From Firmicutes bacterium HGW-Firmicutes-1 (lineage in GTDB: Bacteria > Bacillota > Clostridia > Lachnospirales > Vallitaleaceae), in NCBI GenBank assembly GCA_002841625.1, contig PHAG01000008.1, forward strand, positions 1 to 64,000: a DNA stretch of 64,000 bases. The letters are read 5' to 3'. The position numbers and the translations under genes are program-made. A model generated the notes under the pieces. It was given only the letters and a program-made list of their open reading frames with translations. It had not been told where the DNA came from and made no database searches. Shown here in pieces: positions 40,954 to 64,000 of the stretch (within the stretch, counting starts at the first letter, position 1; each line of letters starts with the position of its first letter).

Positions 40954-41018
40954 TATTAAAATGCAGAAGTAGTACTTTGCATAAATTTGCTTTACTACCA
41001 ATTTTAATAAAACAAATA

Positions 41019-41092
41019 ATACTCGTATAAATTTGAAAATATGGTTCAAATGTTTCTACAAACTACCTCAAATAGTTATAGGCTACGAGTTC
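41019..41092 (+). promoter_or_regulatory. Guanine riboswitch aptamer
   Basis: P1 is ACTCGTA/TACGAGT (41021-41027 and 41084-41090). P2 is ATTTGAA/TTCAAAT around AATATGG, P3 is AACTA/TAGTT, and the invariant GTTTCTAC joins P2 and P3. The J3/1 base in GGCTACGAG is a C at the discriminator position, which reads guanine (or hypoxanthine) rather than adenine. It precedes xpt, the classical target. Confidence 0.92.
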
Positions 41093-41172
41093 AAGCAAAA
41101 TTTGTATACTTTATTTTAGTGTCCTTTCGTAATTTGAAAGGGGTTTCTATTTATTGGTACTAGTTTTGTTAG

Positions 41173-56800: not shown

Positions 56801-56829
56801 TTGACACATGGTCTAATCTGTGATAAAAT
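56801..56829 (+). promoter_or_regulatory. Promoter of the pyr operon leader
   Basis: TTGACA (56801-56806), a 17-base spacer and TAAAAT (56824-56829) form a strong promoter, placing the transcript start near 56836 and giving a leader of about 350 bases before pyrB. Confidence 0.82.
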
Positions 56830-56910
56830 CATAACAATTTGAGCTACAATTTACGAACACATAGCGACCTTTAATTTGGTACCGAGAGACCAGCAAGGGA
56901 GGAAAAATGG

Positions 56911-57072
56911 ATGGGACACATTGATGCGTTCTTTTATAATGTAAAGAATCATTTTATGGATATAAAAAGTATAACAGGACTGATGTTGCAAAACCATCTG
57001 TCCCAGTTCGTCATTAATAAAAATATGGGTGTAAAATATAAAGCAATAGATGCAGTTGACTATTTCATTTAG
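56911..57072 (+). CDS. 53-residue leader reading frame of the pyr operon
   Basis: The ATG at 56911 follows AAGGGAGG (56895-56902) with 8 bases spacing, which is as good as any gene here. The frame reads MGHIDAFFYNVKNHF... and ends ...AIDAVDYFI with TAG at 57070-57072. No residue is strongly enriched, so it is not a histidine- or proline-type counting peptide. The stop codon lies exactly at the start of the 3' arm of the terminator hairpin, and the last 8-9 codons fill the 5' arm. A ribosome close behind the polymerase would block the terminator. I do not recognise a family. It may be a regulatory frame only, or also a small protein. Confidence 0.62.
   Translation: MGHIDAFFYNVKNHFMDIKSITGLMLQNHLSQFVINKNMGVKYKAIDAVDYFI
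56977..57003 (+). promoter_or_regulatory. Pause-like hairpin in pyr leader
   Basis: GGAC-T-GATG (56977-56985) pairs with CATC-T-GTCC (56995-57003) around a 9-base loop, with a T-T mismatch. No T-run follows, so it is not a terminator. It is placed about 37 bases before the attenuator, where a pause site would be expected. Confidence 0.5.
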
Positions 57073-57095
57073 TTAATGTATTTATTGCTTTTCTT
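57040..57095 (+). terminator. pyr operon attenuator
   Basis: The 5' arm 57043-57062 (GCAATAGATGCAGTTGACTA) pairs with 57070-57088 through 19 base pairs, with one bulged G and several G-U pairs, around loop TTTCATT. AAA before and TTT after extend it. TTTTCTT follows. It lies about 95 bases before pyrB and overlaps the end of the 53-codon frame. Confidence 0.82.
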
Positions 57096-57189
57096 ATTCC
57101 TGGGAGAAGTTCTGCAAAAGTTTAATAACTGTATAAATAATCAATAAATACATCAATACTAGTATAAGAATTAAATGGAGGGAAAAACA

Positions 57190-58125
57190 ATGTGGACAAG
57201 AAAAGACATGCTAGGACTTAATGATTTAACGAAGGAAGAGATACTTCAAATATTAACATTAGCAAAAGAAATGAAACCAATGATTGATGATAGATCTTTA
57301 AGCACGAACACTTTAAAGGATACAAGTATAGTATCCCTGTTTTATGAAAACTCAACAAGAACAAAAATGTCCTTTGCACTCGCAAGTAAGTATTTAGGCG
57401 CAACCTTTACTGATTTGGGTATTCATACAAGCAGTGTAACAAAAGGGGAAAGCTTAATTGATACAGGAATGACGATGGACCAAATGGGAACGGATATCAT
57501 TGTTATGAGACATGGCATGACAGGTGCACCCCACATATTAGCAAAAAATGTCAAAGCTTCAGTTGTAAGCGGTGGAGATGGAACGAATGAGCATCCAACG
57601 CAAGGCTTACTAGATTTATTCACAATTATGGAGAGTAAGAAAAGCTTTGAAGGCTTAAAGGTAGTCATTATTGGAGATATTATGCATAGCAGAGTTGCCA
57701 GAAGCAATATTTTTGGTCTTACTAAGCTTGGAGCTAAGGTTGTGCTTTCAGGACCAACGACCTTAGTATCAAAAGGCTTGCAGATTCTTGGAGCAGAGGT
57801 CAATCACAATGTAAGAGATGCAGTTAAGGATGCAGATGTAGTAATGGGTCTTAGAGTTCAGCTTGAAAGACAAAAGGGTGGCATGTTCCCTGATTTAAGA
57901 GAATATTCACAACTTTTTGGAGTAGATAAGGAAGTACTTGACCTTGCAAAAGAAGATGCATTGTTGATGCACCCCGGTCCAGTAAATAGAGGAGTGGAAT
58001 TGACCTCTGAAATTATAGATGGTAAACAATCAGCGATTAACATACAAGTTAAAAATGGTGTAGCAGTAAGAATGGCACTACTAACCTTACTTGCCCAGGC
58101 AAGGAAATCGGAAGCAATTCGCTAG
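57190..58125 (+). CDS. pyrB: Aspartate carbamoyltransferase catalytic subunit
   Basis: A 311-residue enzyme that joins carbamoyl phosphate and aspartate, the first committed pyrimidine step. The carbamoyl-phosphate loop is FYENSTRTKMSFALASK (about 48-64). EHPTQGLLDL (about 129-138) and the HPGPVNRG aspartate loop near 260 are intact. GGAGGGA (57177-57183) selects ATG 57190; the ATG at 57175 is part of the ribosome binding site. No pyrI gene follows, so a PyrI-free enzyme is likely unless pyrI is elsewhere. It is the first gene of the pyr operon, behind the attenuator. Confidence 0.96.
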   Translation: MWTRKDMLGLNDLTKEEILQILTLAKEMKPMIDDRSLSTNTLKDTSIVSLFYENSTRTKMSFALASKYLGATFTDLGIHTSSVTKGESLIDTGMTMDQMGTDIIVMRHGMTGAPHILAKNVKASVVSGGDGTNEHPTQGLLDLFTIMESKKSFEGLKVVIIGDIMHSRVARSNIFGLTKLGAKVVLSGPTTLVSKGLQILGAEVNHNVRDAVKDADVVMGLRVQLERQKGGMFPDLREYSQLFGVDKEVLDLAKEDALLMHPGPVNRGVELTSEIIDGKQSAINIQVKNGVAVRMALLTLLAQARKSEAIR

Positions 58126-58158: not shown

Positions 58159-58214
58159 TAACTGGTGAAATATCTAGCATTAACATATATAACAATGATT
58201 AAGGAGAAATGAAG

Positions 58215-59489
58215 ATGAAGCTATTAATAAAAAACGGACGCATGATCAACCCAGCAACAAAAAAAGATCAAGTACAAGATCTGGTTGTTGAAGATGGTAT
58301 CATTATAGAAATAGGAGATAAAATCAATCTAAAAGATGCTGAAATCATCAATGCAAATAATTGTTGGGTAGTACCTGGATTAATAGATGTACATGTACAT
58401 TTAAGGGAGCCAGGTTATGAATATAAAGAGACCATAGAAACAGGTTCCATGAGTGCGGCAAAGGGTGGGTTTACTACAATATGCCCGATGCCAAACACGA
58501 ATCCAGTAGTTGATAACGAAATCCTAGTCGAATACATCAAGTTGAAAGCAGAAAAACAAGCGGTTGTAAATGTGTTGCCAGTTGGTGCGATTACCAAAGG
58601 ACAAAAAGGCGAGGAATTAGCTAATATTGGAAAAATGAAAGAGGCTGGAATTTGTGCCATAAGTGAAGATGGAAGATCCGTACTTAATGCAGGATTACTA
58701 AAAAAAGCCATGATTTATTCTAAAATGTTTGATCTTCCAATCCTATCTCATTGTGAAGACGATTCCCTTGCAGGGAGTGGCTGCATGAATGCAGGAGATA
58801 CAGCAACCATTCTTGGACTCAAAGGTATTCCAGATGAATCAGAGGAAATTATAGTTGCAAGAGATATTTTACTGGCTGAAAAAACAGGTGTTAAGCTTCA
58901 TATATGCCATGTTAGTACAGCTGGAAGTGTAGAAATCATTAAGAGAGCAAAGGAAAGAAATATAAGTGTAACTGCAGAAGTTACGCCTCACCATTTTACA
59001 CTAACAGAAGAAGCAGTTATGGGCTTTGATTCAAATACAAAGATGAACCCACCGCTTAGAACAAAAAAAGATGTCGAGATAATGAAAATTGCATTGAAAG
59101 ATGGTACAATAGATATCATTGCAACTGACCATGCACCACATCATATCGATGAAAAAAACTGCGAATTCGAAAAAGCTGCCAATGGTATAGTAGGTTTTGA
59201 AACAGCGGTGGCATTAACCATAACAGAGCTGGTAGATAAGGGTATTTTAACACCAATGGAAATGATTGAAAAAATGAGTTATAACCCAGCCAAATTACTC
59301 AATATAGATAAAGGGAATCTTGATATTGGTAAGATAGCAGATATCACTATTATTGATCCTGAGAAGGTCTATAAGGTAGATGCGAGTACATTTCTATCAA
59401 AGAGTAAAAACACTCCCTTTGACGGTAGAGAAGTAAAAGGTCAAGTAAAATATACAATTGTAAATGGTATTGTTAAATACCAGGCATAA
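58215..59489 (+). CDS. pyrC: Dihydroorotase
   Basis: A 424-residue zinc amidohydrolase that closes carbamoyl aspartate to dihydroorotate. The metal-binding DVHVHLREPG (about 58-67) and the later histidines in LSHCEDDSL and HICHVSTAGS are intact. So is the catalytic Asp in ATDHAPHH. The size fits the class I bacterial enzyme. AAGGAG (58201-58206) suits ATG 58215; the earlier ATG 58209 lies two bases from it. It follows pyrB by 89 bases, which include the tandem duplication. Confidence 0.95.
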   Translation: MKLLIKNGRMINPATKKDQVQDLVVEDGIIIEIGDKINLKDAEIINANNCWVVPGLIDVHVHLREPGYEYKETIETGSMSAAKGGFTTICPMPNTNPVVDNEILVEYIKLKAEKQAVVNVLPVGAITKGQKGEELANIGKMKEAGICAISEDGRSVLNAGLLKKAMIYSKMFDLPILSHCEDDSLAGSGCMNAGDTATILGLKGIPDESEEIIVARDILLAEKTGVKLHICHVSTAGSVEIIKRAKERNISVTAEVTPHHFTLTEEAVMGFDSNTKMNPPLRTKKDVEIMKIALKDGTIDIIATDHAPHHIDEKNCEFEKAANGIVGFETAVALTITELVDKGILTPMEMIEKMSYNPAKLLNIDKGNLDIGKIADITIIDPEKVYKVDASTFLSKSKNTPFDGREVKGQVKYTIVNGIVKYQA

Positions 59490-59515
59490 ATAAACATCAT
59501 TCAGGAGGAACTATT

Positions 59516-60448
59516 ATGATAGATTCACTAATCGGTAAAATAAAAGCAACTAGTAATCCAACAGTTGTAGGTCTGGATCCAAGATTGGATTTCGTACCTA
59601 GTCATATAAAGGAAGAAGCATATGATTTATATGGTAAAACCCTTGAAGGAGCATCAAAAGCATTTTTAGAATTTAACAAAGCGATCATTGATGCAACCTA
59701 TGATTTGATTCCAGCAGTTAAGCCACAAGTTGCAATGTACGAGCAATATGGAGCAGTAGGTATGCAAGCTTATATTGACACGATAGCATATGCAAAAGCA
59801 AAAGGACTCGTAATCATTGGAGATATTAAAAGAAGCGACATAGCCTCAACGGCAACATCTTACTCAGATGGTCATATTGGTAGAGTTGAAATTGAAGGTG
59901 AAAAATTAGAAGTGTACAAGGAAGACTTTGTAACACTGAATCCATACCTAGGATATGATTCGATTGAGCCTTATATGGACAATTGCAGGCTATATGATAA
60001 AGGCATGTTTGTACTTGTGAAAACTTCTAATCCAAATAGTGGTGAAGTTCAAGACATTACAGTTGGTGAGAATGGCGAAAGACTTTATGAATATATGGGC
60101 AAGCTTGTTGCAAAATGGGGCGACGAGGTTATGGGAAATGAAGGTTATAGTAGAATCGGTGCAGTCGTTGGAGCAACGCATAAAGAACAAGGTATAAGAC
60201 TGCGTGCGCTCATGCCTAAGACTTACTTCTTAGTTCCAGGTTATGGCGCTCAAGGAGCAACAGCAAGTGATCTTGCTGGCTGTTTTAACAAAGACGGTCT
60301 AGGAGCAATTGTAAACTCCTCTAGAGGTATTATTGCAGCCTATACACTGAAAGCCTATAAGGATAACTTTACTGAGAAAGAATTTGCACAGGCAGCAAGA
60401 CAAGCAGTAATTGATATGCGAGAAGATTTAACTAATTGCTTCAGATAG
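59516..60448 (+). CDS. pyrF: Orotidine-5'-phosphate decarboxylase (type 2)
   Basis: A 310-residue enzyme that decarboxylates OMP to UMP, the last step of the pathway. The active-site GDIKRSDIASTA (about 101-112), VGLDPRLD at the start and LVPGYGAQGA near the phosphate loop identify the longer type 2 (PyrF, about 300-residue) subfamily rather than the 230-residue type 1. AGGAGG precedes the ATG. Its presence before carA/carB means operon order does not follow pathway order. Confidence 0.95.
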   Translation: MIDSLIGKIKATSNPTVVGLDPRLDFVPSHIKEEAYDLYGKTLEGASKAFLEFNKAIIDATYDLIPAVKPQVAMYEQYGAVGMQAYIDTIAYAKAKGLVIIGDIKRSDIASTATSYSDGHIGRVEIEGEKLEVYKEDFVTLNPYLGYDSIEPYMDNCRLYDKGMFVLVKTSNPNSGEVQDITVGENGERLYEYMGKLVAKWGDEVMGNEGYSRIGAVVGATHKEQGIRLRALMPKTYFLVPGYGAQGATASDLAGCFNKDGLGAIVNSSRGIIAAYTLKAYKDNFTEKEFAQAARQAVIDMREDLTNCFR

Positions 60449-60492
60449 TTGCATATCAATCGATCAAATATTCAAATAGGAGGGCAATATAA

Positions 60493-61554
60493 ATGAAAGC
60501 GAAACTCATCCTTGAAAATGGAACAGTTTTTGAAGGTAAAGCTTTTGGACATCTGAAAGAAACAGTTGGAGAAGTAGTATTTAACACTGGTATGACAGGG
60601 TACCAAGAAGTGTTGACGGATCCATCATATTATGGACAAATAGTAACCATGACTTACCCACTAATCGGTAATTATGGAATTAATTTAGATGATTTAGAAT
60701 CAAGTGAAGCAAAGGTAAGAGGCTTCATCGTAAGAGAAAAATGTAACAACCCTAACAACTGGCGTTGTGAATTTGAACTAGAAGAATATTTAAAAAGAAA
60801 TAGGATTATTGGACTTGAAGGAATTGATACCAGAGCATTAACAAAAATAATCAGAAATTATGGTACGATGAGAGGGATCATCACAGTTAGGGATTTAACA
60901 GAAAGTCAAATAAAAAGCAAATTAGACAGCTTCAATAATACCTTTGCTGTAAAGGAAGTATCCACGAACGAGGTCAAGGTTTATGAAGGTGATGGACAAC
61001 ATATAGCAGTTATGGATTTTGGTATCAAAAATAATATTATCAGATCCTTTCAGAAAAGAGACTGCAAGATTACAGTTTTCCCAGCAATGACTACAGCAGA
61101 AGAAATACTAGCTTGTAATCCAGATGGGATTTTCCTTTCGAATGGACCAGGGGACCCTAAGGATCTTCAAGAAGTTGTAGATGAACTGAAAAAGTTAATT
61201 GGACAAAAGCCTATTACAGGAATATGTCTAGGTCATCAACTGTTAGCTCTTGCACTAGGTGGAGATACAGAAAAATTAAAATTCGGTCATAGAGGAACGA
61301 ATCATCCTGTAAAGGATCTGACAACGAATAGAGTTATGATTACATCACAAAACCATGGATATGTAGTAAAGGAAGAAGGGCTTCCAAAGGATATTGAAAT
61401 AACACATATTAATTTAAATGACAATACAGTTGAAGGTATGAGACACCATGGACATCGAATCTATAGTACTCAATTCCATCCAGAGGCTTGCCCTGGACCA
61501 CATGATACAGATGGGATTTTTGATGAGTTTGTTGAGGCAATGAAGCAGTTATAA
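60493..61554 (+). CDS. carA: Carbamoyl-phosphate synthase small subunit
   Basis: A 353-residue glutamine amidotransferase subunit. The N-terminal domain has [21 protein letters not shown]. The class I glutaminase has the nucleophile Cys245 in [15 protein letters not shown], and the His/Glu pair in [11 protein letters not shown]. It passes ammonia through a tunnel to the large subunit encoded next. AGGAGGG precedes the ATG. It is 45 bases from both neighbours, in the pyr operon, which favours a pyrimidine-dedicated enzyme. Confidence 0.96.
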
Positions 61555-61598
61555 AAGGTGAAATGAATAAAAGACCATTTGAAAGGAAAGGTGACATA

Positions 61599-64000
61599 AT
61601 GCCAAGAGATTATAGTATAAAAAAGGTTTTGGTTATTGGATCAGGACCGATTGTAATAGGACAAGCAGCAGAATTTGACTATTCTGGAACACAGTGTTGT
61701 CAAGCGTTAAAGGAAGAAGGCGTAGAAACAGTTCTGGTAAATAGCAATCCAGCAACCATTATGACAGATAAAGAAATCGCAGATCAAATCTACATTGAGC
61801 CATTGACATTAAAGTATTTAGAAAAGGTAATAGATAGGGAAAGACCAGATAGCTTAATAGCAGGAATGGGTGGACAAACAGGACTTAATTTAGCAGTTGA
61901 ACTACATGACGCAGGTATTTTAGAAAAATATGGTGTTAGAGTTATTGGAACTCAAATTGCTGCAATTAAGGAAGGGGAAGACCGAGAAGATTTCAAGAAA
62001 TTAATGGAAAAGATTGGTCAACCTGTTATAGAAAGTAAAATAGTAACAACTATGGAGGAAGGCGTAGACTTTGCTGCCCAGATCGGATATCCAGTAGTTG
62101 TAAGACCCGCCTATACACTTGGTGGTTCAGGCGGTGGAATCGCAGAAGACCGTGAAGAGCTCAAACAAATTCTAGCACAAGGCTTACAATTAAGCCGTGT
62201 TGGTCAAGTGTTATTAGAAAAATCAATTAAGGGCTGGAAAGAAATTGAATATGAAGTAATGAGAGACGGCTTTGGTAATTGTATTACAGTATGTAATATG
62301 GAAAATATAGACCCTGTAGGAGTTCATACTGGTGATAGTATCGTTGTAGCTCCATCTCAAACCCTTTCTGATGTAGAATATCAAATGCTTAGAAAAGCAT
62401 CAATTGACATTATAAATGCAATTAAAATTGAAGGAGGCTGTAATGTACAATTAGCACTGCATCCAGAATCTTTTGAATATGCAATCATCGAAATAAATCC
62501 TAGAGTAAGTAGGTCATCAGCACTTGCATCTAAGGCAACGGGATATCCAATAGCTAAGGTTGCAACGAAAATTGCACTAGGCTATGGACTTGATGAAATA
62601 CAAAATGCAGTAACGAAGAAAACAACGGCTTGCTTTGAGCCTACCTTAGATTATTGTGTAATTAAAATTCCAAAATGGCCTTTTGATAAATTTAGAAGAG
62701 CAAAGAAGACCCTTGGAACAAAAATGATGGCTACGGGTGAGGTAATGGCAATAGGAAACACCTTTGAAGCGGCTCTTCTAAAGGCAGTACGGTCCTTAGA
62801 AATAGGCCAATACTCATTACACCATCCCAAAGCTGCACTTAGAGATATGGACGAGTTAAAGAGACGTGTTCAAGTACCAGATGATGAAAGATTATTTGAC
62901 TTAGCAGAGCTTCTTAGAAGAAACTATAGAATTGATAAGGTATGTCGTATAACAGGTATGGATCCCTTCTTTGTGGATAAAATCAAAGGAATCGTTGATG
63001 AAGAGGAACGTTTAAGAGAAGTAACCATTACAGATATCGATAGGGACTGGATGAGAGACCTAAAAAAGAAAGGCTTCTCTGATAAAGCAATTGCTGATTT
63101 TGTTGGTTGTCCTCCAGTTGAAGTATACAATCTTAGAAGAGCTTTCCAAATTAACGCAGTCTTTAAAATGGTAGATACCTGTGGTGGAGAATTTGAAGCA
63201 GTTTCACCATATTATTACTCAACTTACGATGAATATGATGAAGTTGAAGTTACTGATAGAAAGAAAGTTATGGTTTTAGGTTCAGGACCAATTAGAATTG
63301 GACAAGGTATTGAGTTCGATTATTGCTCAGTGCATGGAATTATGGCACTGAAAAAAGCAGGTATTGAAACAATTATAGTGAATAACAATCCAGAAACTGT
63401 TAGTACAGATTTTGATATAGCAGATAAGCTTTACTTTGAACCTTTAACTGAAGAAGATGTCCTTAATATTATTGAAAAAGAGAAACCAAGTGGTGTAATC
63501 TTACAATTTGGGGGACAAACAGCCATTAAGTTAGCAAGTTTCTTAAGTGAAATGAATGTTCCAATACTTGGAACAAAACCAGAGCAAATAGATGAAGCAG
63601 AAGATAGAGAAAAGTTTGACGATCTTATGGAAAAATTAGATATTAAAAGACCAAAAGGGAAAGCTGTCTGGAAACTGAAAGAAGGCTTAGCAGAAGCTGA
63701 ATTGCTTGGTTATCCGGTACTTGTAAGGCCTTCCTATGTACTTGGTGGCCAGGGCATGGAAATCACTTACAATGAGATTGAGCTAGAAAGGTACTTGGTT
63801 CAAGCCTTTGAGAGAGATCATAAAAACCCAGTTCTAATAGACCGTTATTTAACTGGTAGAGAAATTGAAGTTGATGCAATCTGTGATGGGGAAAACATTC
63901 TTATTCCAGGAATCATGGAGCATTTGGAAAGAGCAGGCATTCACTCAGGTGATAGTATCTCCATTTATCCGCCTCAAAATATTTCTCAATCCATAAAGGA
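61599..64000 (+). CDS. carB: Carbamoyl-phosphate synthase large subunit (partial, runs off window)
   Basis: About 800 of an expected 1070 residues are present. The first synthase half begins [30 protein letters not shown] and has the ATP-grasp block [16 protein letters not shown]. The second half repeats this as [21 protein letters not shown] and [16 protein letters not shown]. The frame is open to the last base. An in-frame ATG at 61563 exists, but MPR at 61599 matches the family start and follows AAAGGTG. It makes carbamoyl phosphate from bicarbonate, ammonia and two ATP. Confidence 0.96.

Follow-up and report, generated by a model that had tools for sequence, protein, structure and literature searches.

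The pyr operon at the end of the DNA analysed here (the window, 64,000 nucleotides of Firmicutes bacterium HGW-Firmicutes-1, contig PHAG01000008.1) is preceded by a promoter, a short reading frame and a terminator, which raises the question of how transcription into the operon is controlled. The original prediction, made from the letters alone, was a translation-coupled attenuator working as in enterobacterial pyrBI, with UTP-sensitive pausing and without PyrR. The parts concerned are as follows:

56801..56829, + strand: sigma-70-type promoter, TTGACA-17-TAAAAT, from a promoter scan
56895..56903, + strand: AAGGGAGGA, the leader frame's Shine-Dalgarno sequence, which shares bases with the 3' arm of a predicted PyrR loop
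56911..57072, + strand: leader frame of 53 codons (MGHIDAFFYN...DAVDYFI), from ORF reading, with its ATG at 56911 and its stop codon TAG at 57070-57072
57040..57091, + strand: intrinsic terminator hairpin of 22 bp with one bulge, then a U-rich imperfect tract; the 3' arm opens with the frame's stop codon
57190..58125, + strand: pyrB (aspartate carbamoyltransferase), heading pyrB-pyrC-pyrF-carA-carB
58209..63998, + strand: downstream operon genes, named by eye from their translations
58209-59489, + strand: pyrC, named by eye
59516-60448, + strand: pyrF, named by eye
60493-61554, + strand: carA, named by eye
from 61563, + strand: carB, named by eye

The promoter is as strong as predicted, matching at 11 of 12 hexamer positions with a TG preceding the second hexamer, and the frame has the good ribosome-binding site ascribed to it, with the Shine-Dalgarno core GGAGG (56898-56902) 8 nt ahead of its start; a frame begun instead at the ATG at 56907 would have just 5 codons. 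The terminator also relates to the frame as described, the frame's closing stretch forming the 5' arm and its TAG opening the 3' arm, though the stem is 22 bp and not the 19 bp first given. The hairpin has a predicted stability of −22.6 kcal/mol (z = −8.0) that none of 200 shuffled sequences equalled. UUCUUAUU follows it directly, an imperfect U-tract, and a simple terminator scan does not call the window's hairpin; in the sister species the U-tract is clean. By RNA folding, the full leader is no more stable than shuffles (z = −0.5). A second hairpin, rich in A and T and formed by 57075-57090 with 57142-57157, was weighed as a possible antiterminator and dropped, as it is missing by eye in the sister species. 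The openness of the frame has by itself a chance probability of about 0.03, hence the case depends on comparison with relatives.

A comparison of the genus's two species shows differences at 48 of the 162 nucleotides of the leader frame, spread almost evenly over the codon positions (15/16/17), which corresponds to a dN/dS of about 0.83, and both frames have 53 codons with no insertion or deletion. Substitutions in pyrB of the same pair fall 25/4/111 over the codon positions. Random placement of 48 substitutions leaves the frame open in 11% of trials, so the pair taken alone is suggestive. All 21 compared terminator pairs are retained, with five altered on one side. This is the pattern that would be expected of a frame that needs to be translated and whose product is unimportant. 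An alignment in relatives had been proposed beforehand to see whether frame, stop position and terminator are kept while the peptide drifts, and they are; the conservation of frame, end point and terminator thus supports the translation-coupled attenuation that had been predicted.

The leader contains one further element, which the original prediction had overlooked together with its overlap with the Shine-Dalgarno sequence:

56868..56898, + strand: predicted PyrR-binding loop CCUUUAAUUUGGUACCGAGAGACCAGCAAGG, whose 3' arm AAGG continues into the leader Shine-Dalgarno sequence (from a sub-threshold RF00515 match, the sister species and model R1)

The AAGG of this loop is the first half of AAGGGAGGA. 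Searched with Rfam at the gathering threshold, the window yields no PyrR site, a result that is misleading taken alone: the loop scores 24.9 bits with RF00515 against a threshold of 54 bits, and the loops of relatives likewise fall below it (best 51 bits), probably because the model expects a terminator beside the loop. The nearest relative, the sister species HGW-Firmicutes-7 (a MAG, PyrB 93% identical), carries CCUUUAAAUUGGUUCAGAGAGACCAGCAAGG at the equivalent place. Our own model, R1, built from 20 loops including that of the window, scores the window loop at 38.4 bits as the sole strong match in its genome. The loop has the features of RF00515, namely an apical CNGNGAG and a helix with a lower CCUU/AAGG stem; the apical motif is kept among the leaders, and helix pair 29-40 switches from G-C to A-U in three of them. 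At the closing pair the window loop departs from the consensus, with A instead of C (A x G).

The search for pyrR, a check proposed beforehand, found the gene on another contig of the same genome (G000:C2:353609-354130, 237 bits), and the solved chains nearest to its product in a PDB search are PyrR proteins. With pyrR in the genome and a predicted PyrR loop conserved in the leader, the latter named beforehand as a finding that would speak against the idea, PyrR-free control did not hold. In the motif GHRELP[IL]R, the PyrR of the window's genus carries T at a position that is R in the proteins of nine other relatives and in a solved PyrR, a residue implicated in RNA binding. The substitution is common to both species of the genus (L176, L001), and together with the off-consensus loop pair it could reflect altered specificity or a co-change.

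Around the start codon, folding and motif searches gave three more features:

56855..56862, + strand: 5' arm of a closing helix, P1 (GAAC.CAU), pairing with 56924-56931 in the minimum free energy fold; provisional
56910..56922, + strand: P3 hairpin, GAUG-ggaca-CAUU, with the leader AUG paired to codons 3-4 in the minimum free energy fold
56929..56934, + strand: TTCTTT, matching the NusG-type pause motif TTNTTT, 18 nt past the leader AUG

The AUG-CAU pairing occurs in all 13 aligned leaders, and pairing of the leader AUG with the CAU of codons 3-4 is found in families f1, f7, f8, f22 and f24, in many of whose folds P1 encloses the PyrR loop and P3. The predicted P1 helix is provisional, showing no compensatory change and being partly broken in the sister species, and the predicted P1/P3 junction is no more stable than shuffles (z = −0.46). 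Most leaders of f1, f8, f22 and f24 likewise carry TTNTTT 18 nt beyond their AUG; on the non-template strand, this motif marks NusG pause sites in B. subtilis (PMC9226507). We infer that a pause here would leave the polymerase just past the newly exposed Shine-Dalgarno sequence and AUG. The pause-like hairpin predicted earlier thus finds some support in the small start-codon hairpin and the TTCTTT after it.

To survey the order (Lachnospirales), 294 genomes were searched, of which 95 had a pyrB match at E ≤ 1e-90 and 54 had pyrR above the cut-off; weak pyrR matches (20-48 bits) in the remaining genomes were taken as other phosphoribosyltransferases. Among the 91 pyrB leaders examined, the loop is present in all 26 from genomes with pyrR and in one of the 65 from genomes lacking it, this one being a 92%-complete assembly. 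A match at −442 in L089, obtained with a looser pattern, was spurious and disappeared under a stricter one. In 21 of the 27 loop leaders, a frame that is led by a Shine-Dalgarno sequence and starts 7-20 nt past the AAGG stays open into the terminator. In dinucleotide shuffles, which covered the loop leaders only, the chance of such an open frame was 0.005-0.12 per leader, with related leaders not independent of each other. The frames vary between families in length (40-67 codons) and sequence, with unrelated C-termini, while their first ten residues are similar (M-R/G-x-I-x-A-F-F-Y), which is accounted for by the AUG-CAU pairing in the RNA and the TTNTTT motif. The six frame-lacking loop leaders all belong to family f2, where they make up 6 of 13. 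Three of the f2 leaders (L134, L136 and L137) closely resemble frame-bearing ones but have ATC, GTA or nothing in place of the start codon, which would fit a decay of leader translation or the use of an unusual start.

From these parts, we consider it likely that the window leader is a PyrR-gated, translation-coupled transcription attenuator. The parts, their overlap and their conservation are read from the sequence; that PyrR binds, that polymerase pauses, that a ribosome is coupled to it and in which direction control runs we infer from them. The nascent leader RNA would form the PyrR-binding loop at 56868-56898. At high UMP, PyrR-UMP would occupy the loop, and the Shine-Dalgarno sequence in the loop arm and the AUG hairpin would keep ribosomes off the 53-codon frame; polymerase would arrive at 57091 with no trailing ribosome, the 22-bp hairpin would form and transcription would stop before pyrB. 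At low UMP, PyrR would release the loop and a ribosome would load, probably during the TTCTTT pause at 56929-56934. On reaching the stop codon at 57070-57072 this ribosome would cover the terminator's loop and the inner part of its stem, allowing readthrough into pyrB, and the sequence of the leader peptide itself would be irrelevant.

Several observations count against the PyrR-gated reading: the imperfect U-tract of the window, the lack of excess stability in the P1/P3 junction, the f2 loop leaders without a frame, the off-consensus closing pair with the T substitution in PyrR, and the uncoupling known from B. subtilis, where transcription outruns ribosomes (PMC7858274, PMC9226507). Runaway transcription in that species goes with terminators near stop codons (PMC7858274). 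In the window, only one of 10 gene-end terminators begins at most 12 nt from a stop codon; this small sample at least does not show the B. subtilis pattern, a point in favour of the PyrR-gated reading.

Of the alternatives, the one that survives best, though we think it unlikely, is classical PyrR attenuation, in which PyrR on an anti-antiterminator frees the terminator and the frame is incidental. Loop and terminator are both present, and some clostridial leaders are of this type (L018, L152, L154 and L156), but here the two lie about 140 nt apart, whereas in classical leaders they are close and share an antiterminator. Folding of the window leader predicts no alternative pairing between loop and terminator, and the frame, with the loop arm as its Shine-Dalgarno sequence, is conserved far beyond chance. 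A shade less probable again is that PyrR stabilises the P1-closed junction and UUCUUUU (56929-56935) pauses or terminates transcription, with the second terminator and the frame as a back-up. The P1-closed minimum free energy fold, found in the window and in most f22 and f24 leaders with the U-tract directly after it, speaks for this. However, the junction is weak in the sister species, whose minimum free energy fold pairs differently, its stability is no better than that of shuffles, and a frame staying open for 120 nt more into a strong terminator is left unexplained.

Control of the pyrBI type, independent of PyrR, in which UTP-sensitive pausing decides whether the ribosome keeps pace, is very improbable for the window. 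The frame does end inside the terminator, yet the leader has a PyrR loop and the genome has pyrR. Nor is there a U-run before the window terminator to match the predicted UTP-dependent pausing: U makes up 30% of the last 50 nt in the window leader, with a longest run of two, and 30% in the window's genus, against an average of 56% in f12, the largest of the families lacking pyrR. Of the pyrBI-like mechanism, translation coupling is supported for this leader, PyrR independence and UTP-sensitive pausing are not. The least credible proposal, that the frame's product is a small protein with a function of its own and that its position upstream of pyrB is chance, can point to the similar first ten residues and is contradicted by the dN/dS of about 0.83, the unrelated C-termini and the unequal frame lengths between families.

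The pyrBI idea is better suited to relatives of the window that lack pyrR. Families f12 and f18 are without the loop and have retained the terminator, and in 47 of their 54 leaders with a candidate homologous terminator a frame led by a Shine-Dalgarno sequence ends in its 5' arm, beyond it or within 15 nt of it. By analogy, these leaders, U-rich in f12, resemble E. coli pyrBI, and the pyrBI-like version first predicted for the window thus appears to exist in the pyrR-less families of the order. Leaders of f24 combine the PyrR loop with a U-rich tract. We are evenly divided on a wider reading in which Clostridia use an attenuator family of interchangeable parts, with frame and terminator in common, a loop on the Shine-Dalgarno sequence where pyrR is kept and UTP-sensitive U-runs where it is lost. 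On this wider reading, these Firmicutes would make routine regulatory use of coupling between ribosome and polymerase, unlike B. subtilis. Leaders of the pyrBI-like kind, with a frame led by a Shine-Dalgarno sequence, often U-rich, and a stop in the terminator 5' arm before pyrB, include L007, L010, L067-L072, L079-L089, L117-L130 and others.

Elsewhere in the class, model R1 matches 61 of 392 genomes. Of 29 leaders examined there, 10 show the same succession of loop, Shine-Dalgarno sequence, frame and terminator, upstream of carA or pyrC (L151, L160, L161, L162, L164, L166, L167, L170, L172 and L175). In 11 others the loop lies directly on the Shine-Dalgarno sequence of pyrB (L147-L149, L153, L155, L157, L158, L163, L168, L171 and L174), where a loop 3' arm serving as that sequence suggests direct translational repression. 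The remaining leaders of the 29 look classical or are unclear. Five loci from outside (Veillonella, Dehalococcoidia and Paenibacillus) have classical PyrR leaders without such a frame.

The nearest precedent is the pyr leader of Thermus ZO5, for which Van de Casteele et al. in 1997 reportedly proposed that PyrR blocks translation of a leader frame that otherwise prevents termination. PyrR control of leader-frame translation would be common to both, but Thermus belongs to another phylum, and here the Shine-Dalgarno sequence is the loop arm, the AUG lies in a hairpin, TTNTTT follows, and the design occurs in many clostridial families before different pyr operons.

Other known systems share parts of the PyrR-gated scheme. 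The B. subtilis PyrR attenuators (RF00515) have the PyrR protein and the loop in common with the window; in B. subtilis PyrR works through an anti-antiterminator and translation plays no part, whereas in the window a frame separates loop from terminator, and the RF00515 model misses leaders of the window type. In Mycobacterium smegmatis, for which PyrR-dependent translational repression is reported (Fields and Switzer 2007), a PyrR loop would likewise govern ribosome access, to a structural gene there and to a leader frame here; the 11 clostridial leaders with the loop on the pyrB Shine-Dalgarno sequence are closer to that direct arrangement. E. coli pyrBI (pyrL; PMC5021804) also has a leader frame running into a terminator and a coupled ribosome that prevents termination, but the sensor proposed here is PyrR-UMP at translation initiation and not UTP-limited pausing at a U-run. 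The B. subtilis vmlR leader (PMC9226507) shares the leader frame, the NusG TTNTTT pause and the intrinsic terminator, its signal being an antibiotic-stalled ribosome and not a metabolite-binding repressor.

A literature search, covering mostly papers available without subscription, found no description of leader-frame control of clostridial pyr operons, and ribosome-dependent pyr control across Clostridia is unexpected. If the PyrR-gated reading is true, a decoy frame would be a third use of PyrR in Firmicutes, beside anti-antitermination and direct translational repression. It would need a ribosome close behind the polymerase; as B. subtilis transcription is held to outrun its ribosomes, these leaders lend themselves to testing whether the two are coupled in Clostridia. 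Relatives lacking pyrR form a natural comparison between repressor and UTP sensing on a common leader layout.

Downstream of pyrR lies another gene for aspartate carbamoyltransferase (L001:2120-2155, on C2 of the window's own genome, and L143). ACCGACCTAAGAGAGGTGTC, which is ACCGAACGAAGAGAGGTGCC in the sister species, overlies the Shine-Dalgarno sequence of this gene; it may represent a diverged PyrR loop with a direct effect on translation, and is not matched by model R1. No viral copy of pyrB turned up when one was looked for. At a distance from the pyr operon, the window also holds a purine riboswitch aptamer at 41003-41105 (Rfam RF00167, 65 bits).
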